From contig NZ_CP094468.1 of NCBI RefSeq assembly GCF_023347275.1, forward strand, positions 2,480,001 through 2,544,000: a stretch of DNA of 64,000 nucleotides. The letters are read 5' to 3'. The notes beneath the pieces were generated by a model. The model was not told the origin of the DNA. It worked only from the letters and a program-made list of their open reading frames with translations, and did no database searches. The position numbers were made by a program, and so were the translations under genes. Below are positions 8,878-40,827 of this stretch, piece by piece. Each line of letters starts with the position of its first letter. Positions within the stretch are counted from its first letter, which is position 1. Source of the DNA: Faecalibacterium sp. I3-3-89 (GTDB taxonomy: Bacteria; Bacillota; Clostridia; Oscillospirales; Ruminococcaceae).

Positions 8878-10389
8878 ATGACTCAAAACGAAACATTGCT
8901 GCTGGGCATCGACATCGGCACTACCGGCACGAAATGTGCGATCTATGACCTGAAGGGTGAGCTTGTCGCCCACGCCTATCAGGAGTACTCCATGATACAC
9001 CCGCAGCCGTCCTGGGCCGAGCAGGATCCCCATCGCTGGTGGAACGCCGTCCAGACGAATCTACGCGACTGCTTTGAGCAGCAAGGCATCGACAGCAGCC
9101 GCATCGCCTCCATCGGCCTGAGCTGCACCAATGCCATGACGCTGGTGGACGAGGCAGGCGAGCCGGTGTACAACGCCATCGGCCACCACGACAAGCGCGC
9201 CGACCCGCAGGTGGCGTGGCTGCGTGAGCATGTCGGCGAGGAGCTCGTCCTCCGCGTCACGGCGGACAAGCTGGACAAGGGCTCGTTCTGCCTGCCCTCT
9301 CTGCGTTGGCTCATCGACAACCGCCCCGAGCTGGTGGCTCGGGCGTATAAAATGCTGATGCCCAGCGGCTACATCATCCAGAAGCTCACCGGAAAGTTCT
9401 CCATGAACCGCCCCCGGATGAGCCTCACCTCGCTGTCCGACATCCGCACCGGCGAGTGGAGCCGCGAGATCGCCAAAAAGGCGGAGATTCCCTTCTCGCT
9501 GCTGCCTACCCCCTACGACCCCTGCGACATCGTGGGCGGCGTCACCGAGGAGGCTGCCCACATCACCGGATTAAAAGCCGGTACACCGGTGTCTGCCGGT
9601 TGTCTGGACAGCGTAGTGGCCACATTGGGCGCAGGCGCTGTGCAGGAGGGCGATGTCGCCCTCACCATCGGCAGCAGCGGCCGCATTTGCTACATCGGCA
9701 GCGAGCCCATCTACGATAAGCGTCTGCTGAACTGCCGCAGCCCCTATCAGGGCCTGTACACCATTTTGCAGACCACCGACAACGCCGGCATCTCCCTGCG
9801 CTGGTTCCGTGATGTCTTCGGCGACGCCGTCCAGCAGAAGGCCGAGGCTGCGGGCCTGTCCGTCTACGATTACATGAACACGCTGGCTGAGAAGGTTCCC
9901 GCAGGCTGCAACGGTCTGGTCTATCTTCCCTATCTGGCCGGTGAAAAGTCCCCCATCTGGGACTCCGACGCCCGGGGCGTCTTCTTCGGCATGAGCCTTT
10001 CCACCGATTACGGTGCTTTCGTCCGCGCCATCATGGAGGGCGTCGCACTCTCTATGCGGGACTGCATGGAAATTATGCCTGCTGCCAAGAAGTCTATTTC
10101 CCCCATTCCTCTGGGCGGCGGCGCAGCCAACAGCCGCGTCTGGTGTCAAATTTTCGCCGACGTGCTGAACCGTCCTATCGTCCGCCTCAAGAGCGGTGAG
10201 ACGGAAACTCTGGGCGATTTTATCATCGCCGCCGAGAGCGTCGGCCTCTCCGACGTCACCCGCGACTTCGGTAAGAAGCTGGCCGCTGAGAGCGAAGTCC
10301 TCTATCCCGATTCTGCGGCAGCATCGGTCTATGATAAGACCTATCAGAAGTATAAGGCTGTTTATCAGAACACGAAAACGCTATTCTAA
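8878..10389 (+). CDS. FGGY-family carbohydrate kinase
   Basis: A 503-residue ATP-dependent sugar kinase of the xylulokinase/fuculokinase superfamily. The N-terminal ATPase lobe starts LLGIDIGTTGTKCAIYD. The substrate-loop segment is SWAEQDPHRWW, with NAIGHHDKRAD, and the catalytic Asp is likely in the SAGCLDSVVATLGAG region. The C-terminal lobe has LPYLAGEKSPIWD and the FGGY-signature-like GGGAANSRVWCQIFADVLNRPI. GGAGGAGAGTCACGGAT precedes the ATG. It is second in an operon with the class II aldolase, a pairing known from fucose, rhamnose and ribulose pathways. No isomerase is present, so the pathway may start from a ketose or a compound oxidised elsewhere. Confidence 0.92.
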   Translation: MTQNETLLLGIDIGTTGTKCAIYDLKGELVAHAYQEYSMIHPQPSWAEQDPHRWWNAVQTNLRDCFEQQGIDSSRIASIGLSCTNAMTLVDEAGEPVYNAIGHHDKRADPQVAWLREHVGEELVLRVTADKLDKGSFCLPSLRWLIDNRPELVARAYKMLMPSGYIIQKLTGKFSMNRPRMSLTSLSDIRTGEWSREIAKKAEIPFSLLPTPYDPCDIVGGVTEEAAHITGLKAGTPVSAGCLDSVVATLGAGAVQEGDVALTIGSSGRICYIGSEPIYDKRLLNCRSPYQGLYTILQTTDNAGISLRWFRDVFGDAVQQKAEAAGLSVYDYMNTLAEKVPAGCNGLVYLPYLAGEKSPIWDSDARGVFFGMSLSTDYGAFVRAIMEGVALSMRDCMEIMPAAKKSISPIPLGGGAANSRVWCQIFADVLNRPIVRLKSGETETLGDFIIAAESVGLSDVTRDFGKKLAAESEVLYPDSAAASVYDKTYQKYKAVYQNTKTLF

Positions 10390-22582: not shown

Positions 22583-22622
22583 AAAAACGCCCCGGCTTCC
22601 TGTTGCGGAAACCGGGGCGTTT
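22583..22622 (-). terminator. Terminator after tail repeat A
   Basis: CGCCCCGGTTTCCG pairs with a CGGAAGC-type arm ending CCGGGGCG, followed by GTTTTTGC on the minus strand. Nearly the same hairpin follows tail repeat D (39169-39209). Confidence 0.9.
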
Positions 22623-22664: not shown

Positions 22665-22718
22665 TTACTTGCGGGGGTTCTTGATCGCAGCCTGGGCGGG
22701 TGCCAAAATTACAGAGCG
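22665..22718 (-). repeat. ppdK-tail-like repeat, copy A
   Basis: 54 bp that, read on the minus strand, could encode RSVILAPAQAAIKNPRK and a stop. Three more copies lie at 25777, 32589 and 39257, always just downstream of the last gene of an accessory module. The AQAAIKNPR part matches the C-terminus of PPDK (RLAAAQAAIKNPRA). Twelve bases further on, CCTTATGCTCTC (22639-22650, plus strand) also occurs at the ppdK end (43491-43502). Confidence 0.85.
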
Positions 22719-24230: not shown

Positions 24231-25193
24231 TTACTCCGGTTTTCCTTTCATCATCTGACCCAGAATCGCATTCTTCGTGCTATCACTCAAATAGGCCTTG
24301 TTTAGCGTTTTCTTAGTATAATTCAAATATGTCCCAGCCGCTTTCTCTATCAAAAGTGCCGTAAAGTAGCGCTCCCAGCTAAAATACTCCTTACTATCAA
24401 TGTAATCAGATGGTGTTTGCAAAATCTGTGCAACCTTTGTATCTTTCAGAATTCCAGAAGATAATACCAGACACTCAAAAGATTCCGGCAGATATAGTGC
24501 CAGGTTTTTTCTTGTCTGCACCAACTGCAACACCCTGTCCATTTCCGGGCCAAAGGCGGCACCATCTGCAATCACCAGAATCTTTTCATCCTTATGAACC
24601 TTCAAATAGGAAAATATATTAGATTTTCCGTTTGCGGTATCACATTGCATTTGATGTTCTGTACAGACCGCATCAAAAAACTGATAACCCGAATTGCTGT
24701 CCTCAGTCAAAATTTTCTCCGGCTTAATATTTTCCGTTGTGCTATCCGGGTAAATTCGATAGAACGAATGATAACTCTGTTTCAGTGTCCCATACTTTCC
24801 AGAGGTTCGGATTCCATACACTTCTTCCACACTGTATGGCAAGGCCGGCAAACCCTCTCTGGTCACGATAACATAATAGTTATCCGTCTGCTGAATCGCA
24901 CGCGCAAAATCTTTGGTCTTGACAAACTCGTTTCCTTCGTCGATAAAAACAATGCTGTCCTGAATGTTGTTGAGCTGTCCCTTCCACAGATTTCCTTCTA
25001 CCACATAGCAGCCTTTATCACAATTTAGAGTGACCGGCCCACTTTCTCCATCGTTCATATGCGTACGAATCATATCTACGAGAGTCGTTTTACCCGTTGC
25101 ACTATCCCCACGAATGATGGTCAAGTTGCGTCGCAGTTCAAATTCATATTTCAGGTACTTTGTGCCAACGACCACTTTATGAATGCCTTTCAT
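24231..25193 (-). CDS. P-loop ATPase paired with DUF4869 protein, copy 1
   Basis: A 320-residue protein of no known function. Walker A is IIRGDSATGKTT (G29-T37) and Walker B is SIVFIDEG (D85/E86), followed by YYVIVTRE, a sensor-like strand. This looks like an ABC/SMC-type or AAA-type fold with little between the two motifs. The second half carries LTEDSNSGYQFF (E164) and ILVIADGAAFG (D210), a Glu...Asp arrangement that could be a divergent TOPRIM-like domain as in OLD-type nucleases; this is only a suggestion. The start follows AAAGGGG and is 14 bp after the DUF4869 gene. A homologue of the whole protein is encoded at 39355-40311. Possible roles are nuclease-ATPase of a defence system, or regulator of the partner. 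Confidence 0.8.
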   Translation of the reverse strand: MKGIHKVVVGTKYLKYEFELRRNLTIIRGDSATGKTTLVDMIRTHMNDGESGPVTLNCDKGCYVVEGNLWKGQLNNIQDSIVFIDEGNEFVKTKDFARAIQQTDNYYVIVTREGLPALPYSVEEVYGIRTSGKYGTLKQSYHSFYRIYPDSTTENIKPEKILTEDSNSGYQFFDAVCTEHQMQCDTANGKSNIFSYLKVHKDEKILVIADGAAFGPEMDRVLQLVQTRKNLALYLPESFECLVLSSGILKDTKVAQILQTPSDYIDSKEYFSWERYFTALLIEKAAGTYLNYTKKTLNKAYLSDSTKNAILGQMMKGKPE

Positions 25194-25207
25194 TTCTGTC
25201 AGCCCCT

Positions 25208-25645
25208 TTACACAAACTCACCTGCGGCCAAAATCAGCTCTTCCATACTGTGAACGATTTGATTCGTATTCAGCACTTTTATTGTAAACGGCTTTTTGCC
25301 AAAATCCATCAGGTGACGCAAATTCACCGTGCGATCCTCCTGCTCTGCAATTTTGAGCAGCCACTTTGCACAGTTGTCGCCACAAGTCGATACATTGAAC
25401 ACTTTCTCCGGCTCAAACTTTACCAAAATCAGTGTCTTTACGCCACCAGACAAACCAATCGGTGGAATTTTACCCAAGACCGGGCTGTCAATTACACCAC
25501 TGTCGATAACGGTAGACTTATCCACATCCTGAATCATTTCCTTGACCATCGGGTCAACGATCCAGTCTTCCTCGTAATCGTATTTGAAATAAGAAGCCGT
25601 ATTGTACACCGCTTCCTTCATATCACCGTAAAAAATGTTCAGCAT
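25208..25645 (-). CDS. DUF4869-type small protein, copy 1
   Basis: A 145-residue protein starting MLNIFYGDMKEAVYNT. I recall this pattern as DUF4869, common in gut Firmicutes, with no known function. Conserved blocks shared with the copy at 40321-40764 are DSPVLG, LSGGVKTL, STCGDNCA, NLRHLMDFGKK, KVLNT and VHSMEEL. The STCGDNCA block has two Cys and an Asp that could bind metal or form a catalytic site. The ATG has GAGGTGATAAG upstream. It is the first gene of a module driven by a promoter almost identical to that of jetA and of the second copy. Confidence 0.82.
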   Translation of the reverse strand: MLNIFYGDMKEAVYNTASYFKYDYEEDWIVDPMVKEMIQDVDKSTVIDSGVIDSPVLGKIPPIGLSGGVKTLILVKFEPEKVFNVSTCGDNCAKWLLKIAEQEDRTVNLRHLMDFGKKPFTIKVLNTNQIVHSMEELILAAGEFV

Positions 25646-25680
25646 CTTATCACCTCATCGATGTGCGTACTTCTGCTATC

Positions 25681-25709
25681 ATTGTACCCTCTTTCAGCTT
25701 ACAAAACAA
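25681..25709 (-). promoter_or_regulatory. Shared-type promoter B (DUF4869 module 1)
   Basis: TTGTTT (25709-25704), 17 bp, TACAAT (25686-25681) on the minus strand. The spacer TGTAAGCTGAAAGAGGG is nearly the same as at promoters C and E, and ATGATAG follows the -10. Confidence 0.75.
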
Positions 25710-25713
25710 GATG

Positions 25714-25755
25714 CAAAAAGCTCTTGGCCTCCATTACAGAAGCCAAGAGCTTTTA
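25714..25755 (-). terminator. Terminator after tail repeat B
   Basis: AAAAGCTCTTGGC pairs with GCCAAGAGCTTTTT around a short loop. The same hairpin follows tail repeat C (32526-32567). Confidence 0.9.
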
Positions 25756-25776
25756 TCTTCTTTGTCCTACCAGATT

Positions 25777-25830
25777 TTATTTCCGGGGAGACTTAATTGC
25801 AGCCTGAGCGGGTGCCAAAATTACAGAGCA
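25777..25830 (-). repeat. ppdK-tail-like repeat, copy B
   Basis: Could encode SVILAPAQAAIKSPRK and a stop. It begins 42 bp after the jetD stop codon and is nearly identical to copy C. Confidence 0.85.
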
Positions 25831-25871: not shown

Positions 25872-27110
25872 CTACTCTAGAAATGTTTCTTGTTCGATTG
25901 TGACCCCATATTGCAAAATCTTATCAATTGCATCAACAAACAGCGTATGTCTTCCCGCATTCCGCTCTTCCTTCAGCTTCTTCAGATACTGCTCCGGCCG
26001 CTTCAGGCCATTTTTGTGGTACTGTTCCACAAAGCGCCCTTCCATACGCATGGGCTCAAGCTGTGGGAACACCGTTTGCAGGTTTTCAAACATACAAAAA
26101 CCGCCCAGATCAATATCTGCCCAGAATCGAATTTGCATGGTTTCCCCTGCCGCAGCAGCCAGTTTTTCAAAAAGTTTTTTCTTCCGCGGGCTCAGAAAGC
26201 CGCCGTGATAAACAACAAGTTCTTCCGGCTGTTTTTCCGCCAGCAAATATTCATCATAGTTCGTTTTATTTTCGATAAGGGTAATGCAGCAGATGTTTTT
26301 CAGTTCAATGTCCACAATCTCTGACACAAGTGTACTGGGCAAAGCCAATCCATAAGGTTCTGCTGCGCTGAGCCGTAGTTCTCCCTTCTTCAAGCAGATT
26401 GCGCAATCGCCCGAGAGTTCGTAAAGCTCCGGGCGGGCATAGATTCCCAGAAATGCAAGCTGATCCCGCGCACCAAGTTCCGCTTCTGTACAGGCCGCCG
26501 CCAGTTGGGTATTGTACTTTCGTGCAATGGTAAGAAACAGCTCCCGTACATTTCGCTCAAAATACTTGGTATCGTGAAAACACTGGCTGCTGAATGCACG
26601 CATCGTCACACTGCCGGACAGCTCCGCATACCGTTGAAACGTGAGCAAAAGCTCCTGCAGCAGACCGTCGTTTTCTCTGCAATACGTCGGCACTTTCATG
26701 CTGTTCCGCACCTGAGCACATACAGCATCCCTCCATGCCGCGATCCATGGAACGGGATTGTATGCCAGCTTCTGCATGATGATGTTTGCAACCTCTTCTG
26801 CCTTTTTTCGCGGATGCACTCTGTCGGCGCATTCATAGCACTGTGCGACCCGTTCCAGATCCAGCACAATGCAGGCGAGAACGCTCTGCTTTCTCGCCCA
26901 TTCCAGACGCACCAAAGCCTGCTGCTCCAGCTCCCGCGCTGCAATATTGTAAGCATCCCGAACCACCGCATCTTCGTATTGATACTCCGGCAACTCCCTT
27001 TTATCAATGCGCAGCATTACCCGACGTCTGGATGTGTTGGGTTCAGAAAGATGCTTACTGTTTTCAAACTTATCCAGCAGACGATTCAGGATCACCTGTG
27101 CTTCCTTCAT
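25872..27110 (-). CDS. jetD: Wadjet nuclease subunit JetD
   Basis: A 412-residue DUF2220-type protein. The C-terminal half is a TOPRIM domain with the Glu motif CITLIENKTNYDEYL and the DxD motif IRFWADIDLGG. The N-terminal half has a winged-helix/arm region (RDAYNIAARELEQQALVRLEW). In Wadjet systems JetD cuts plasmid DNA after the JetABC SMC motor extrudes it. The start at 27110 is chosen because AAGGAGATGCAGA precedes it; it overlaps jetC by 41 bp. It is the last gene of the operon. Catalytic acidic residues are intact. Confidence 0.92.
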   Translation of the reverse strand: MKEAQVILNRLLDKFENSKHLSEPNTSRRRVMLRIDKRELPEYQYEDAVVRDAYNIAARELEQQALVRLEWARKQSVLACIVLDLERVAQCYECADRVHPRKKAEEVANIIMQKLAYNPVPWIAAWRDAVCAQVRNSMKVPTYCRENDGLLQELLLTFQRYAELSGSVTMRAFSSQCFHDTKYFERNVRELFLTIARKYNTQLAAACTEAELGARDQLAFLGIYARPELYELSGDCAICLKKGELRLSAAEPYGLALPSTLVSEIVDIELKNICCITLIENKTNYDEYLLAEKQPEELVVYHGGFLSPRKKKLFEKLAAAAGETMQIRFWADIDLGGFCMFENLQTVFPQLEPMRMEGRFVEQYHKNGLKRPEQYLKKLKEERNAGRHTLFVDAIDKILQYGVTIEQETFLE

Positions 27111-30100
27111 TCTGCATCTCCTTTCCAAATGGAATGATATGCATCCGGTATCCGGATTTGTCCACTAATAATGTGCGGTCTGCAATGGGCATAATGTCCG
27201 AGACCTTATCCGGCGGCGTACAGATGATCGCCTGCAGCCCCATCTTTCGGAGAAGGAGTACACTCTCCGTGATCCGGTCACTATCCATTTTATTGAAAGC
27301 TTCATCGAACACCACCAGACGCACCGTATTACCAAAACGGGTAGCGTCGTTGACGCGGTACAGCTGGGCAAACGAGGCCAGCACCGCAATATAAAATGGC
27401 GTTTGTGTTTCGCCACCGGACTTCATATTCAGTGTTTGAGAAAGCAGCTGCTTGGAACCGTTCTGATCGGTCGTTTCCAAATCAAATTTCAGATACGTCC
27501 GGAAGTCTGTATAGCGGACGATATTCTCCTGCAGTTCGCTCTGTTTGCGGGCATTGAGCTGCGTATCGTCTGCCATTGTGATCTGGCTGAACAGTTTTTC
27601 GATCAATGGGCCGTATTTTTGCTGAAAGGGCAGTGCGAATAGACCGGATTCGCCTTCCATCAGTTCATCTGCCGTGATCATGTTATAGTAATCCAGATAA
27701 TCCGGGTTTGGCCCTACGCGGAATTGGTACTTGTCTGTGCCAAATTGTGCCTGGCGCAGGGCCTTGTTCAGATTGTGCACCTGTTCTTGCACCTGGTCGA
27801 TGCTGGATTTCAGTTTGGCAAGGAAATCGTTCTGGAATTGCTCCATTGCGCTTTCCCGTGCCGCCCGGATCTTTTCTTTGTATCGGGGCAGCTCGCTTTC
27901 CTGCAGAGTACGCCGTTCTTCCTCGTATTCGGTGTTATCCATCACCTCGATCTGGAATGCACAGGGTTTGAACCGTTCTGCATATTCTCTGCGTGCTGCA
28001 AACAGTTTCTTCCGAGCCCCGTCCATCGCCTTTGTGTTCTGCGCCAGACTGTCGCCGAAATTTTTACGGATAATGTCTGCTTTTTTCAATCGGTCAAGTT
28101 CCTGCTGGTAGCGGGGAACGCCGATGTTTTCCCGGTATTCCTTCGTGAACTCCTCGTTCAAGACATCTTCGATGGCCTCATACCGTTGGTATTTTTCCGG
28201 CAAGATCTCGTATTCCAGCTGGTGGATGCGGCTTTCCAGATTGCCCCTTTGCACATTTTTCGCATCTTTTTCCTTGTTAAGTGCAAGGATTTCCTCTTTC
28301 AGATGCTCAATGATCTGCCGCTGCTCATCCAACCAGAACAGATTCAGCTGGGAAAGCTGATTTTTGACTTCTGCGATTTCCTTGATGATCGTCTGGACAC
28401 GCTGGTAGTCCTCCTGCTTTTGCGCCACATCGATTCGGACGAATCTTTGGGTAAAAAGCGGCTCCTGCAGGCTGGTCAGCTGCTTCTGGAGCGGCTGCCA
28501 ATGCCGCAGCTCTTCCTGCAGACAGGCCAGTTCCTTTTCCAGATGGTCGATGCGGAGCTGCACCGCACGCCGCCCGATGAAGGCGTCTTCCATCCAGCCC
28601 TTCCGAAGTGCGCGGGCCACATAGCCCTGATACAGCATTCCCTCTGCCGTAATTGCCGTTTTATAGCAGCGCAACTGTTCTGCCGTGTCGCAGCATATCA
28701 CCCGACCCAGAAGATAGTCCACATAGCTGCGTGCCAGCTTGTTTTCTGTCTCCACCTTTTCTGCTAGACTGCCGGGCAGCGGTCGAAGTGTTTCTTTTTC
28801 CCGCAGTTTTCCGATATCTACCAGACCAAACGCACGGTACTCTGCTTCCTGCTTCAGCCGGTCGTAAATGTTAAGTGCATTCTGATAACGTCCCGGCTCC
28901 ACCAGCAGATAATATTTCTGGTTATTTAGGTAGCCTTCTACCGCTCCACGCCAGCGCTCATCTGCCATTTCCAGCACATCAGCCAGAATATAAACGGAAA
29001 CCGCATGCCCCGTTTTATCCGCCAGATCCTTTTCCAGCCGGTCTTTGAACAGCAGAAGCCCATGGGGATAATCTTTTATGTTCCTGCGCAGATTTGCAAG
29101 CACCGCACTTTTCTGGTCGGCTTGCTTCTTCAGCTCTGCAATACGATCCTCTGTTTTATGAGCCGCACTGCGGACAGCATCCGACAATTCGACCGCTGCC
29201 TGCTGCCCCGTTTCAAACAACTCCGCAGGCCGGGCAAACAATCCCTTCTCGTCACCAGTAAATACAGCATATGCTTTCTGCACAGTGTTCGCCGCTTCCT
29301 GCACCGGTATGAGAAGTTCTTCCGGTTCCAGTTCTTGTATCTCCCCACAGAATCTCTGCAAATGCCGTGCTTCCCGCTTAATCTCCACTTCAAGATTTTG
29401 CAGACCCTGTTCCAGCTTTTTCTGCTCATCTCTCAGAGCCTTTTCCATGTTGAGCAGACGCTCTTCCTCCTGGAAAACATTGCTCTGCCTGCAGGCCAGC
29501 TCCAGCTCACTGCGGCGCGTTTCTTTCTGTTCGATCTGCCGCTCAAGCTCTTCCCGTTGCTCATTCACATTTGCAAGGTTCTCCTTGCATTCAGTTCGTT
29601 CCAATTCCCTCTGGTCGATCTCTGTCTGCGCAACTTCTTTTTCGGCCCACCGTACCAGAAACTTCTGGATCTGGCAGCGGTCTATAGCTTGGTTCATCTC
29701 CTGATACAGCCTGCTGATTTGCTGCAGCGCATCCAGCTTTTCCTGCTGACGCTGCGCCAGCAATTCGTGCCGTTTATAATCCCGGATGTTTTGCTGCATC
29801 AGCTCAATATTGGGTTTATCCGGAATATCGCAGATGTTCTCCGTAATAAATTTTTGGATATCCACAATTGGCCGGAACGAAACAGCCTTCTTCATCATCC
29901 GTAAGACCTGCTCGTTGTGGACATTCCACTTTGCAAGCATGTTGCGGCGATACTCTTTTTGGGTATCGTAAAATTCTGCCCGTGCATAGTTCTGCTTCAA
30001 AAAACGGCGAAGTGCAGAAATCTCCATTGCCTCGCCCTGCTCAATAAAGCAATTTTCCGGCAGTGTCCCCGTGTAAATAAAGAATGTATCACGGTAACTT

Positions 30101-30453
30101 CCATCGCTGCGGCAGTCAAAAGTAACGCCTGTCACAAAGCTGCTGCCCTCCATCTCATCCTGAAATTCGCAGACAATATAGGTAGAAAAGTCCTTACCAC
30201 GGCGGGAATACGGGCTGTTATCATCCATGTCGGCGCGCAGATAGCCTTCCAATGTGCGCTGCGATTTTTCGTTGGCTGCCTGATTAAAATTGCGAGAATT
30301 TGTCTCGCCCAGCAGTACGATCTGCAGTGCATCGATGACCGTTGACTTTCCGGCGCCGTTCTTGCCGGTCAGGAAATTGATGTCGCCCACTTCAATCAGT
30401 TCCTTACTGAAATAGAGCCAGTTGATCAGCAAGATCTTCTTCAGCTTCTTCAT
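27070..30453 (-). CDS. jetC: Wadjet SMC-like ATPase JetC
   Basis: A 1127-residue MukB/SMC-like ATPase. Walker A (LTGKNGAGKST) lies near residue 30 and Walker B (RLVVFDEAFNKMD) near residue 1065, with long Glu/Lys/Gln-rich coiled coils between them and a hinge-like globular part around residues 480-620 (VYILADVLEMADERW). It loops DNA with JetA and JetB so that JetD can cut small circular DNA. AAAAAAGGAGGAAACAG precedes the ATG. The gene overlaps jetB by 50 bp and jetD by 41 bp, so all four genes are tightly coupled. Confidence 0.95.
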   Translation of the reverse strand: MKKLKKILLINWLYFSKELIEVGDINFLTGKNGAGKSTVIDALQIVLLGETNSRNFNQAANEKSQRTLEGYLRADMDDNSPYSRRGKDFSTYIVCEFQDEMEGSSFVTGVTFDCRSDGSYRDTFFIYTGTLPENCFIEQGEAMEISALRRFLKQNYARAEFYDTQKEYRRNMLAKWNVHNEQVLRMMKKAVSFRPIVDIQKFITENICDIPDKPNIELMQQNIRDYKRHELLAQRQQEKLDALQQISRLYQEMNQAIDRCQIQKFLVRWAEKEVAQTEIDQRELERTECKENLANVNEQREELERQIEQKETRRSELELACRQSNVFQEEERLLNMEKALRDEQKKLEQGLQNLEVEIKREARHLQRFCGEIQELEPEELLIPVQEAANTVQKAYAVFTGDEKGLFARPAELFETGQQAAVELSDAVRSAAHKTEDRIAELKKQADQKSAVLANLRRNIKDYPHGLLLFKDRLEKDLADKTGHAVSVYILADVLEMADERWRGAVEGYLNNQKYYLLVEPGRYQNALNIYDRLKQEAEYRAFGLVDIGKLREKETLRPLPGSLAEKVETENKLARSYVDYLLGRVICCDTAEQLRCYKTAITAEGMLYQGYVARALRKGWMEDAFIGRRAVQLRIDHLEKELACLQEELRHWQPLQKQLTSLQEPLFTQRFVRIDVAQKQEDYQRVQTIIKEIAEVKNQLSQLNLFWLDEQRQIIEHLKEEILALNKEKDAKNVQRGNLESRIHQLEYEILPEKYQRYEAIEDVLNEEFTKEYRENIGVPRYQQELDRLKKADIIRKNFGDSLAQNTKAMDGARKKLFAARREYAERFKPCAFQIEVMDNTEYEEERRTLQESELPRYKEKIRAARESAMEQFQNDFLAKLKSSIDQVQEQVHNLNKALRQAQFGTDKYQFRVGPNPDYLDYYNMITADELMEGESGLFALPFQQKYGPLIEKLFSQITMADDTQLNARKQSELQENIVRYTDFRTYLKFDLETTDQNGSKQLLSQTLNMKSGGETQTPFYIAVLASFAQLYRVNDATRFGNTVRLVVFDEAFNKMDSDRITESVLLLRKMGLQAIICTPPDKVSDIMPIADRTLLVDKSGYRMHIIPFGKEMQNEGSTGDPESSAG

Positions 30454-31051
30454 CTGTTTCCTCCTTTTTTAAAACAGACACCACCAAGTTCAGCTTTTCG
30501 CTGGAGACCGCAGAGAGAATGGTGGGCAGTACTGCAATCTTGCAGCTGCCCTGGTTGAATTTTCCTTCCAGTCTTTGAATCACAGAATGGTTTTCCAGTA
30601 CCGTAAACGCGCGTTTGACCTCTTCCATATTCGGCTTAGCCGGAAAAACTGGATAGTCGGTCACCACTTTTTCCAGCACATCCCGCACAGTACACACGGC
30701 ATCCTGCTCCAAACCCAAACGCTCCATATTTTCTTCGTAGATCAGCCGTAATGCCAGCAAAATCGCCGTTTCTTTTTTATTGAGGTTGCAACGGTTAGCC
30801 TCGTCTGTGTTCAACACATAAAAGTATCCGTTCAGTTCATCCCTGCGCAAATCCCAGTCCAGCAGGCTCAGGTACTCCTGTACAGCCTCATAGTGCCGTG
30901 ATAGAAAAAGATAGTCTGGGTTATCCATCCTGCCTTTTCCCGGCTGGTAGATGGTTCGCACAATGTATGTGCGACTGAGCAGCTGATTGCAGACAGATTT
31001 GAATTGTTCCAGTTCTTTTGCCGTTGCATTGGTAATAAAATCAAAATTCAC
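30404..31051 (-). CDS. jetB: Wadjet subunit JetB
   Basis: A 215-residue DUF4194-type protein, the MukE/kite-like subunit, with winged-helix character (NKKETAILLALRLIYEENMERL). The GTG start overlaps the jetA TGA (GTGA) and has GGAGGAAGGAG 8 bp upstream. A longer frame from a TTG exists but lacks such a site. The C-terminus is acidic (EETDEEAEEDLADQ). Confidence 0.9.
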   Translation of the reverse strand: MNFDFITNATAKELEQFKSVCNQLLSRTYIVRTIYQPGKGRMDNPDYLFLSRHYEAVQEYLSLLDWDLRRDELNGYFYVLNTDEANRCNLNKKETAILLALRLIYEENMERLGLEQDAVCTVRDVLEKVVTDYPVFPAKPNMEEVKRAFTVLENHSVIQRLEGKFNQGSCKIAVLPTILSAVSSEKLNLVVSVLKKEETDEEAEEDLADQLALFQ

Positions 31052-32448
31052 GGCTTCTTCTCCTTCCTCCGGATCTGCATTTGCGGGATCGAATAGCCAT
31101 TTTTGCAAAAAATGCCATCGAGTTCCTGGACCACATAACCGGCAGATGCATCCTTGCTTCCAAGGATTGCCAGCAAACTCATGATATAATCCTTGTCCTC
31201 TTCAAGCGAGAACTCCTCCGAGCAACGAATGTCAGCGTCTCCCAGCCATTCCTGCACGTAAGCATTTACTGCTGCTCGGCCATATTTCGATTGCAGTAAC
31301 TGTGCCGCTCTGACCTGTTCTTCCGTATTCGGTGCCTGATCATCTTGTATCAGCACCGACGCGGTTTTTGTCCGTTTTTCGGGGCGCTTACGGTACCACA
31401 GACTTTTTTCTGACAAAAAAGACTGCTCATACAATTGAAATGCCGGTTGTATCTGGTCCACCAGCTCAGACGCCCTGCGGTTTCTGGACAGTGCCGTCAG
31501 CAAAACATTCAAATTGCCGCGCACGCTTTGATCTCGGTTCGTCAGATTCTCGATTTTCTGTGTTGCTGCCCTGGTATAGCGCCGGACCTGCGTATCAATT
31601 TCTTCAAGATAGTCCTTCTCTAAATTGTCATAGCGTTCTTCGATCCAGAAAATTTTCCTCAGCAGATCGGCACGGCAGTCTTCCAATGTCTTGCCCCGCT
31701 TATCGCGCAATGCTTCATTTGCCATCGCAATCAGCAAGGTATCATCCTCTTCCCAGCGCCTAAGCACAGACTGAATGGGCACACGATACTTCGGCACTGA
31801 ATCTTTGATTTTCAGCGGACGGATATATGCCTCCACAACCTTTTGTCCGAAGTCGTTAAAGTGTGCAGCTAGTACCTGGTTGACATCCTGCATATCGATC
31901 TGCGTCTGAAAATAATGCTTCACATTATGATAGACCATTTGCAACAAGCTAATCAGCGCCGTTGTGTTATCGTAGGCACTATAGAGAGCCGTCATTTTAT
32001 CGTAAGCATTGTTGCTGTCGTCGGCGGTCTTTAAGACTGAGAAAGTTCCGAACACATAGGAATATCCACGAGCCGGGCTATCATCGCAGAGTTGGTGGAA
32101 TAATTCCAGCAAACGGCTGCTGTAATTAGGAATCGTGATATACTCTTCAAAGTCGTCCCCGCGTTCTTTCTCAAACCACCCCTTACTACACAGCTTGCGG
32201 ATCAAAAAACGAGCGCGGCCAGAGATATCCCTCAGTTCCTCTTCGTCAATGTCTTCATCTTCAAACGTAGCATCCGCCAGTTCCTGCTCCAGCCTGCCGC
32301 GCAGCATGGAATACAAGACATCTTCCCGTATTTTCAGGTTTTCTTGGTATGCTGCGTACAGTACGTCCAGTGCATCCGCATATAAAATACGGTTGGGCGA
32401 AGCCAGCGGCGAGAAAAGTTCGCTTGGAACCGCTTCAAAAAACTTCAT
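31048..32448 (-). CDS. jetA: Wadjet subunit JetA
   Basis: A 466-residue kleisin/MukF-like protein. It starts MKFFEAVPSELFSPLASPNR, which I recall as the DUF5716-type JetA of one Wadjet subtype. It has an N-terminal winged helix (ISGRARFLIRKLCSKGWFEKE) and a long helical middle (YDNLEKDYLEEIDTQVRRYTRA). It bridges the JetC dimer and binds JetB. It is the first gene after the promoter at 32493-32521. The ribosome site is modest (GGTGGTAGGCCT). Confidence 0.9.
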   Translation of the reverse strand: MKFFEAVPSELFSPLASPNRILYADALDVLYAAYQENLKIREDVLYSMLRGRLEQELADATFEDEDIDEEELRDISGRARFLIRKLCSKGWFEKERGDDFEEYITIPNYSSRLLELFHQLCDDSPARGYSYVFGTFSVLKTADDSNNAYDKMTALYSAYDNTTALISLLQMVYHNVKHYFQTQIDMQDVNQVLAAHFNDFGQKVVEAYIRPLKIKDSVPKYRVPIQSVLRRWEEDDTLLIAMANEALRDKRGKTLEDCRADLLRKIFWIEERYDNLEKDYLEEIDTQVRRYTRAATQKIENLTNRDQSVRGNLNVLLTALSRNRRASELVDQIQPAFQLYEQSFLSEKSLWYRKRPEKRTKTASVLIQDDQAPNTEEQVRAAQLLQSKYGRAAVNAYVQEWLGDADIRCSEEFSLEEDKDYIMSLLAILGSKDASAGYVVQELDGIFCKNGYSIPQMQIRRKEKKP

Positions 32449-32492
32449 AGGCCTACCACCTTATTCGACTAATATACGCTTTCTTTTCTATT

Positions 32493-32521
32493 ATTGTAAC
32501 CTCTTTCCTCTTACAAAACAA
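32493..32521 (-). promoter_or_regulatory. Shared-type promoter C (Wadjet operon)
   Basis: TTGTTT (32521-32516), 17 bp (TGTAAGAGGAAAGAGGT), TACAAT (32498-32493) and then AATAG. Nearly identical to promoters B and E of the DUF4869 modules. Confidence 0.75.
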
Positions 32522-32525
32522 GATG

Positions 32526-32567
32526 CAAAAAGCTCTTGGCCTCCATTACAGAAGCCAAGAGCTTTTT
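32526..32567 (-). terminator. Terminator after tail repeat C
   Basis: AAAAGCTCTTGGC / GCCAAGAGCTTTTT hairpin with a T-run on the minus strand, as at 25714-25755. Confidence 0.9.
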
Positions 32568-32588
32568 TCTTCTTTGTCCTATCAGATT

Positions 32589-32642
32589 TTATTTCCGGGG
32601 AGACTTAATCGCAGCCTGAGCGGGTGCCAAAATTACAGAGCG
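32589..32642 (-). repeat. ppdK-tail-like repeat, copy C
   Basis: Could encode RSVILAPAQAAIKSPRK and a stop. It begins 11 bp after the stop of the AEC transporter gene. Close to copy B over the repeat, the terminator and the promoter. Confidence 0.85.
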
Positions 32643-39168: not shown

Positions 39169-39209
39169 AAAAACCGCCCCGGCTTCCTGCTTCGGAAACC
39201 GGGGCGGTT
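39169..39209 (-). terminator. Terminator after tail repeat D
   Basis: CCGCCCCGGTTTCC pairs with GGAAGCCGGGGCGG, then TTTTTGTG on the minus strand. Nearly the same as the hairpin at 22583-22622. Confidence 0.9.
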
Positions 39210-39256: not shown

Positions 39257-39310
39257 TCACTTGCGGGGGTTTTTAATAGCAGCCTGAGCGGGTGCCAAAA
39301 TTACAGAGCG
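39257..39310 (-). repeat. ppdK-tail-like repeat, copy D
   Basis: Could encode RSVILAPAQAAIKNPRK and a stop. The 20 bases CAGGCTGCTATTAAAAACCC are identical to the ppdK 3' end. It begins 44 bp after the stop of ATPase copy 2. Confidence 0.88.
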
Positions 39311-40320: not shown

Positions 40321-40764
40321 TCACACAAACTGAAATGCAATCGGCATCAGTTCTTCCATGCTGTGCACCACATCACCGGTATTCAGGACTTTTACGTCCA
40401 CCGGGAATTTCTTCTTGCCGAAATCCATGAGATGCCGCAGGTTGATAGTCAAATCCTTCTTTTTCGCCAGCTTCAGAATAAAGGGTGCACAGTTGTCACC
40501 GCAAGTTGAGGCATTGAATACCTTTTCCGAGTCGTTTGCCATCAGCAAAAGCGTTTTCGTGCCGCCAGACAGTTTTTCCGGCGAGATAACCCCCAGAACC
40601 GGGCTTTCCACCGCATGAGGGCCTTTGACATCGGACTTGTCAATTTTCTTGATGACCTCTTTGGCAAAGTCAGAAGTCAGCCACTCGTCCTCGTAGGTAT
40701 AGTTAAAATAGACCGAAGTATTGTAGACAGCCTCCGGCATATCTCCAAAGTAGATGTTCAGCAT
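40321..40764 (-). CDS. DUF4869-type small protein, copy 2
   Basis: A 147-residue homologue of the 25208-25645 product (about 86 identical positions when aligned by eye). It starts MLNIYFGDMPEAVYNT and keeps SPVLG, LSGG, STCGDNCA, NLRHLMDFGKK and VHSMEEL. GAGGTGATACC precedes the ATG. First gene of the second DUF4869-ATPase module. Function unknown. Confidence 0.82.
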   Translation of the reverse strand: MLNIYFGDMPEAVYNTSVYFNYTYEDEWLTSDFAKEVIKKIDKSDVKGPHAVESPVLGVISPEKLSGGTKTLLLMANDSEKVFNASTCGDNCAPFILKLAKKKDLTINLRHLMDFGKKKFPVDVKVLNTGDVVHSMEELMPIAFQFV

Positions 40765-40798: not shown

Positions 40799-40827
40799 AT
40801 TGTACCTTCTTTCTACTCACAAAACAA
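40799..40827 (-). promoter_or_regulatory. Shared-type promoter E (DUF4869 module 2)
   Basis: TTGTTT (40827-40822), 17 bp (TGTGAGTAGAAAGAAGG), TACAAT (40804-40799), then AATAG. Matches promoters B and C. The tail repeat and full terminator present upstream of B and C are missing here; only a fragment resembling CTCTTGG remains. Confidence 0.75.

Follow-up and report, generated by a model that had tools for sequence, protein, structure and literature searches.

A DUF4869 gene and its P-loop partner in Faecalibacterium: a candidate two-gene module joining ABC-type and TOPRIM-like parts

What does a small protein of no assigned function do when it is encoded, twice within one accessory region, directly ahead of a P-loop protein? 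The question is raised by a 64,000-nucleotide (nt) stretch of Faecalibacterium sp. I3-3-89 (contig NZ_CP094468.1, positions 2,480,001 to 2,544,000; hereafter the window), where a DUF4869 gene and a larger gene form two diverged pairs in which a sequence-only reading had seen an undescribed defence system. We consider the chances about even that the pair is a self-contained growth-arrest module, of the kind seen in toxin-antitoxin or abortive-infection loci, with the build of an OLD/PARIS machine made smaller and cut in two; this is the best supported reading, and the pair may play a part in phage defence. It is widespread in one bacterial group, and literature searches turned up no description of it. 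Its two copies lie as follows.

24231..25193, minus strand: P-loop + TOPRIM-like gene, copy 1 (320 aa); fold as modelled for P0126, which is closely related to copy 2
25208..25645, minus strand: DUF4869 gene, copy 1 (145 aa), whose product is predicted to be a degenerate ABC-like head (signature LSGGVKTL); PF16163 E 1.1e-64, model of homologue P0004
39355..40311, minus strand: P-loop + TOPRIM-like gene, copy 2 (318 aa); from motifs and predicted fold
40321..40764, minus strand: DUF4869 gene, copy 2 (147 aa; protein P0004); PF16163 E 4.4e-66, model pLDDT (predicted local distance difference test) 96.6

These coordinates, with gaps of 14 nt (copy 1) and 9 nt (copy 2) from DUF4869 to the large gene, agree with the sequence-only reading, which had described two diverged operon copies alike in order and near-zero spacing. 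Its by-eye count of 86 DUF4869 identities was exact (86 of 147 aligned positions, 59%), and the motif blocks that it quoted from both proteins are present; the large proteins share 147 of 320 positions (46%). Both small proteins are clear members of Pfam DUF4869 (PF16163), scoring 216.5 and 221 bits against a curated cut-off of 28.9. The family description gives the function as unknown, and a literature search found no paper naming DUF4869; the sequence-only reading had likewise known of no assigned function. The large proteins match no Pfam family above cut-off. A third copy of the pair lies at position 167748 of the same 2.8 Mb genome (locus L003); at the near-identical locus L008 the adjoining frames look, by eye, replication-initiator-like and ParA-like.

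The conclusion that DUF4869 and the large gene constitute a two-gene functional unit is strongly supported by their near-fixed order and spacing and by the selection acting on them. A scan of one genome per species yielded 433 relatives. Among the best 79 of the 433 loci, which were read together with the single DUF4869 locus in the viral_contigs collection, 52 were followed by a large gene with 290 codons or more, and the gap, measured to the first possible start codon between −60 and +200, was between −20 and +41 nt in 51 of them and 114 nt in the other. DUF4869 comes first in 42 of 44 intact pairs sampled from the family of genome G559 (probably Lachnospiraceae; hereafter the family sample). 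Ratios of nonsynonymous to synonymous substitution (dN/dS) for both genes in Faecalibacterium are 0.02–0.10 (the three copies allowed 15, 3 and 1 pairwise comparisons), indicating purifying selection. The genes that follow the large gene are unrelated between loci, which rejects a fixed downstream effector and argues that the two genes are the whole unit. DUF4869 matches occur in 11 of 199 relatives (8 of them in the same genus), in 13 genomes of a class-wide sample of 393 and in 77 of 397 genomes of the family, with up to 10 matches per genome when weak ones are counted.

Two general associations were considered for the pair and rejected. Residence on phages or plasmids is not the rule: apart from the viral_contigs locus, three plasmid records out of 72,556 had a match, as did five phage records out of 50,697, and those five are unannotated faecal contigs. 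Nor are direct repeats a general feature, since a repeat of at least 16 nt flanks the pair in 3 of 69 rows outside the Faecalibacterium hotspot described below (0.5% of random windows), and two of those three (L080 and L082) represent a second DUF4869 copy. Multiple or nearby DUF4869 copies, some with truncated large genes, were seen in genome G687 (10 matches) and at L037/L038, L080–L082 and L092. At L030 (9800–13200), as read by eye, DUF4869-type modules follow one another, spaced by a different repeat with the inverted repeat CAGGGCAA...TTGCCCTG and sharing a common tail.

The predicted structures suggest how the two proteins might work together. The large protein is predicted to be bipartite: a small N-terminal ATPase domain of the ATP-binding cassette (ABC) type, with Walker A and Walker B as in the OLD family and without a signature motif, precedes an OLD/TOPRIM-like domain of about 160 residues. 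In copy 2 the motifs run, in order, Walker A GDSATGKTT, Walker B VDEG, TED, GK, ADGAAFG and PESLE. The sequence-only reading, which had called this protein a P-loop ATPase, was right about its first part but left out the second; its advice to search for a TOPRIM fold proved useful, as the model of P0126 points to a C-terminal domain that looks TOPRIM-like. Judged against the motif definition given in the consulted part of PMC6755086, and placed by secondary structure, the invariant TOPRIM glutamate and glycine (E165 and G190) are conserved in 15 of 15 large proteins. DUF4869 in turn is predicted, from the model of P0004, to be an ABC-like head that lacks the P-loop. Among 74 DUF4869 sequences the LSGGxKTL signature is nearly invariant by column counts, and a Walker A motif of the form GxxxxGK[ST] occurs in none. 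The proteins are complementary: the large one has Walker A and B but no signature, and DUF4869 has a signature but no Walker A. Read most simply, they would form one composite ATP site that controls the TOPRIM-like domain. One 268-residue frame (L160, 1984–2790, minus strand) carries the DUF4869 domain at its C terminus, behind an N-terminal part of no recognised kind.

The two genes are not lost evenly. In the family sample, where a large gene counts as intact if it covers at least 290 of 323 columns, each of the 44 intact large genes adjoins an intact DUF4869 gene, whereas 20 intact DUF4869 genes have next to them a large gene that is partial or broken, and for 10 more no large gene was seen; this count covers 82 of about 124 DUF4869 rows, scores five large-gene candidates per genome and is uncorrected for contig ends. 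Under decay proportional to length, finding no lone intact large gene among 44 has a P of about 0.0015. The sequence-only reading had held that frequent solitary occurrence of either gene in housekeeping contexts would count against it; DUF4869 does often occur alone, and intact large genes do not. A second set, 92 loci chosen for a well-preserved DUF4869 and read base by base, gave 97 rows with an intact DUF4869, of which 58 have an intact large gene, 34 a remnant and 5 none. Coverage of the remnants is 0.85–0.91 over columns 1–100, 0.68–0.79 over 101–160, 0.48 over 161–180, 0.32–0.38 over the TOPRIM core (181–260) and 0.41–0.50 over 261–320. By reading of the list by eye, the P-loop part is open and the TOPRIM-like part damaged at 21 loci, and the reverse holds at 2 (L071 and L088; binomial 3e-5). 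Three of the 34 remnant rows are diverged forms rather than wrecks (the second row of L030, the first of L092, and L167), L032 and L039 are related to each other, as are L080 and L082, draft assemblies contribute false frameshifts, and loss of the large gene may in part rise with distance from DUF4869. Since all 44 intact large genes keep DUF4869, and DUF4869 outlives a damaged TOPRIM part, the pattern fits restraint of the large protein by DUF4869. It also agrees with one feature of toxin-antitoxin loci, a two-gene operon whose putative effector is not kept without its small partner (44 of 44). In genome G022 (L006, 1333–1908) a DUF4869 gene of the copy 2 type has no large gene and is followed instead by an AAA_15 gene.

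The growth-arrest module that we favour may work as follows. One half of an ABC ATPase, with Walker A and Walker B, would come from the large protein, in which it is fused to a TOPRIM-like effector that probably cuts nucleic acid; DUF4869, as a predicted degenerate ABC head without a P-loop, would contribute the canonical LSGGxK signature. Joined as an asymmetric ABC pair with a single composite ATP site, the two would form a clamp that keeps the TOPRIM-like domain inactive until a trigger (phage, plasmid, and nucleotide or DNA stress are candidates) opens it, and the freed domain would then damage nucleic acid. The computation itself establishes how the genes are paired and ordered, the purifying selection, the conserved motifs, the predicted folds and the uneven decay; the composite site, the restraint, the nuclease activity, the trigger and the outcome are inferences. 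Three observations weigh against this scheme: (i) the link in sequence between DUF4869 and ABC proteins rests on the signature; (ii) the TOPRIM DxD position reads D-G-A or D-G-G in 15 of 15 large proteins, with a true DxD in none; and (iii) the structural comparison scores are modest. Two diverged large proteins have D-N-A and D-L-G at the DxD position. Searches with DUF4869 against RecN/AAA_15/AAA_21 proteins, JetC and the large protein gave no matches, and none were found among Protein Data Bank (PDB) sequences. A single-sequence PDB search with the large protein returned nothing under E 0.2; its profile found one match below 1e-3, a 'phosphate-loop protein' (6c2u, E 2.5e-5).

In the libraries searched there is no close match to a characterised system, in agreement with the earlier claim of novelty, and in its design the pair is a variation on the ABC-TOPRIM machines represented by OLD and PARIS. 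Like the OLD family (class 1 OLD, class 2 GajA and class 3 retron Eco8), the large protein carries an ABC-type P-loop and then what looks like a TOPRIM part in one chain, with the invariant TOPRIM glutamate and glycine. It differs in being shorter (320 residues against 534–679 for the matched GajA models), in having no signature-like motif in its P-loop part, in having D-x-A/G in place of DxD, and in being encoded, unlike OLD nucleases, in tight association with DUF4869. The pair has no consistent third gene and hence no fixed helicase or reverse transcriptase partner. In PARIS (AriA/AriB, OLD class 4) the ATPase and TOPRIM parts are separate genes, whereas the main form of our pair holds both in one gene and appears to be divided within the ABC machinery itself; the AriA profile does no better than E 0.003, a match to the mini P-loop of L030. 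Because the DxD feature is absent, we do not file the pair as an OLD or PARIS member. Septu PtuA and Lamassu LmuB are also ABC-type ATPases, and their systems use different effectors; their weak PADLOC matches to the large protein (LmuB 6.6e-6, PtuA 5e-4) cover no more than its first ~110 residues, the region of the P-loop. The PADLOC candidate PDC-M38 was rejected, since its matches with the proteins of copy 2 were weak (E 0.018 and 0.026) and did not reappear with ten diverged members.

Whether the pair founds a new class of ABC-TOPRIM machine, with an ATP site spread over two genes, one giving the P-loop half and the TOPRIM-like effector and the other a pseudo-ABC protein that is both site partner and safety catch, is a proposal to which we give somewhat less than even odds. 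If it is true, this would be the first function for DUF4869, as far as searches show, and a case of an ABC signature that comes from a dedicated gene of its own; it suggests a new layout for ABC-gated nucleases in which the ATP site is itself the antitoxin interface. It would also give a concrete and testable role to a Pfam family without function that is present in about one-fifth of 397 probably Lachnospiraceae genomes, and the natural loss series, in which the effector part is damaged while DUF4869 and the P-loop part are retained, provides ready-made controls.

A narrower view, that the pair detects and stops invading DNA and travels with Wadjet and CRISPR-Cas as a further defence set, seems to us unlikely, though the likeliest of the alternatives. 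It draws on the company kept in the Faecalibacterium hotspot (Wadjet, CRISPR-Cas, RloB with AAA_21, SIR2 and AAA_15 proteins), on the promoter sequence common to the pair and jetA, and on the combination of ABC and TOPRIM parts in the anti-phage Gabija, retron and PARIS systems, as described in the consulted part of PMC10568477. But the hotspot modules also carry sugar-use genes, and the PADLOC matches are weak and mostly limited to the P-loop. In the wider family, at a PADLOC threshold of 1e-10, 140 randomly chosen of 341 pair neighbours matched 43 families, against 49 families for 136 of 173 control proteins from 13 stretches, with 25 of the 43 and 25 of the 49 families listed and several of these being broad ATPase models; in this small test no clear excess of defence families near the pair was seen, and many neighbours are, by reading, ordinary genes. 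The sequence-only reading had inferred defence from context, naming a lack of enrichment near defence genes as a ground for refuting it: the hotspot agrees with the inference, but in the wider family that ground applies in part, and defence by context is local to Faecalibacterium. Among the neighbours at L155, L157 and L160 and in two neighbour clusters are what we take to be AAA-ATPase-like/PD-(D/E)XK genes, AAA_14-type genes and DUF3990-like frames.

The standalone position in unrelated contexts, the up to 10 matches in one genome and the frequent damage to the TOPRIM-like core while DUF4869 stays would also suit a selfish addiction module, one that persists and spreads because loss of DUF4869 is harmful and that brings the host no benefit; a copy beside replication- and ParA-like frames and three plasmid records point the same way. 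We regard this as distinctly improbable, given that flanking direct repeats are inconsistent outside Faecalibacterium (3 of 69 rows), that integrase-like genes, labelled by eye, occur in only 8 of 80 loci, and that strong purifying selection fits benefit equally well. Least probable of all, in our judgement, is a housekeeping or regulatory role in DNA maintenance with a catalytically dead TOPRIM-like part, which the uniform D-x-A/G would allow and for which the consulted part of PMC12796447 offers a parallel in the archaeal OLD-family ATPase Cran1, with a cell-cycle role and apparently none in defence; patchy presence (77 of 397 family and 13 of 393 class genomes), variable copy number and frequent decay speak against it. 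The growth-arrest module accordingly remains the reading that we prefer.

How the pair came to lie where it does in Faecalibacterium is a separate matter. As the sequence-only reading stated, both copies share one block with Wadjet, which lies between them, and with CRISPR-Cas, whose Cas3, Cse1 and Cas1 genes lie to their left. The modules of this block are separated by a direct repeat, R.

25872..32448, minus strand: Wadjet JetD, JetC, JetB and JetA, between the pair copies (PADLOC)
22687..22716, plus strand: R copy 1, CRISPR-Cas / pair 1 boundary
25799..25828, plus strand: R copy 2, pair 1 / Wadjet boundary
32611..32640, plus strand: R copy 3, boundary of Wadjet and the module of phosphotransferase system (PTS) and GH1 genes
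39279..39308, plus strand: R copy 4, PTS-GH1 module / pair 2 boundary
25681..25709, minus strand: promoter-like TTGTTT-17 nt-TACAAT upstream of DUF4869-1 (shared upstream sequence)
40799..40827, minus strand: promoter-like TTGTTT-17 nt-TACAAT upstream of DUF4869-2 (shared upstream sequence)
32493..32521, minus strand: the same promoter-like sequence upstream of jetA (shared upstream sequence)

The core of R is 30 nt, and its four copies in the genome all lie between modules of the window in a single orientation. It occurs in 9 of 31 genomes of the genus (31 copies, 1–6 each; those of a genome share one orientation and lie inside 47 kb). In a family-wide sample of 197 genomes its only carriers are G000 and the same-genus G007, and viral_contigs has none. 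A search of positions 10000–48000 against Rfam at gathering score gave no matches, so R fits no known RNA family. The modules between R copies, counted by similarity from a scan of one protein per family, vary: Wadjet is present in four genomes (G000, G020, G022 and G026), a pair with its large gene in seven and RloB with AAA_21 in three, and CRISPR-Cas, PTS/GH1, AAA_15 and SIR2 genes occur in some. Since R is also present in two genomes without DUF4869 (G007 and G028), it is a feature of the hotspot and not of the pair. In six of the nine genomes (G000, G007, G010, G020, G025 and G028) genes of the window's right flank are found beyond the last R, on its right; the fetched stretches of the other three do not show these genes. 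R could be an RNA element, a site of recombination or something left behind by homologous exchange, and we do not choose among the three; no recombinase was identified for the array. It is possible that the R-bounded modules are a cassette array, in which case the Faecalibacterium pair would travel as one cassette among defence and metabolic modules, and, were R a recombination system, gut commensals would be seen to shuffle defence and sugar-use modules.

Upstream sequence common to both pairs and Wadjet, which the sequence-only reading had noticed, was recovered by alignment: the 120 nt before DUF4869-1, DUF4869-2 and jetA give pairwise scores of 50, 76 and 39 against shuffle maxima of 17–20. 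The TTGTTT-17 nt-TACAAT element, read off the sequence, is promoter-like by comparison with the consensus. The region upstream of cas3 lacks the common sequence, and that of the PTS regulator gene is at most marginal (17.5 with DUF4869-2, against a shuffle maximum of 15). A 157-nt stretch at 25676 is 95% identical to another at 32488. Terminator-like hairpins of two kinds stand beside the R copies (22583–22622, 39170–39209, 25708–25762 and 32520–32574). The gene that follows the pair in its module is SIR2_2 in G020 (L128, 12746–14215), PRiA4_ORF3 in G022 (L144, 9039–9464) and a PRiA4_ORF3 relative in G025; other genomes have unknown proteins at this place.
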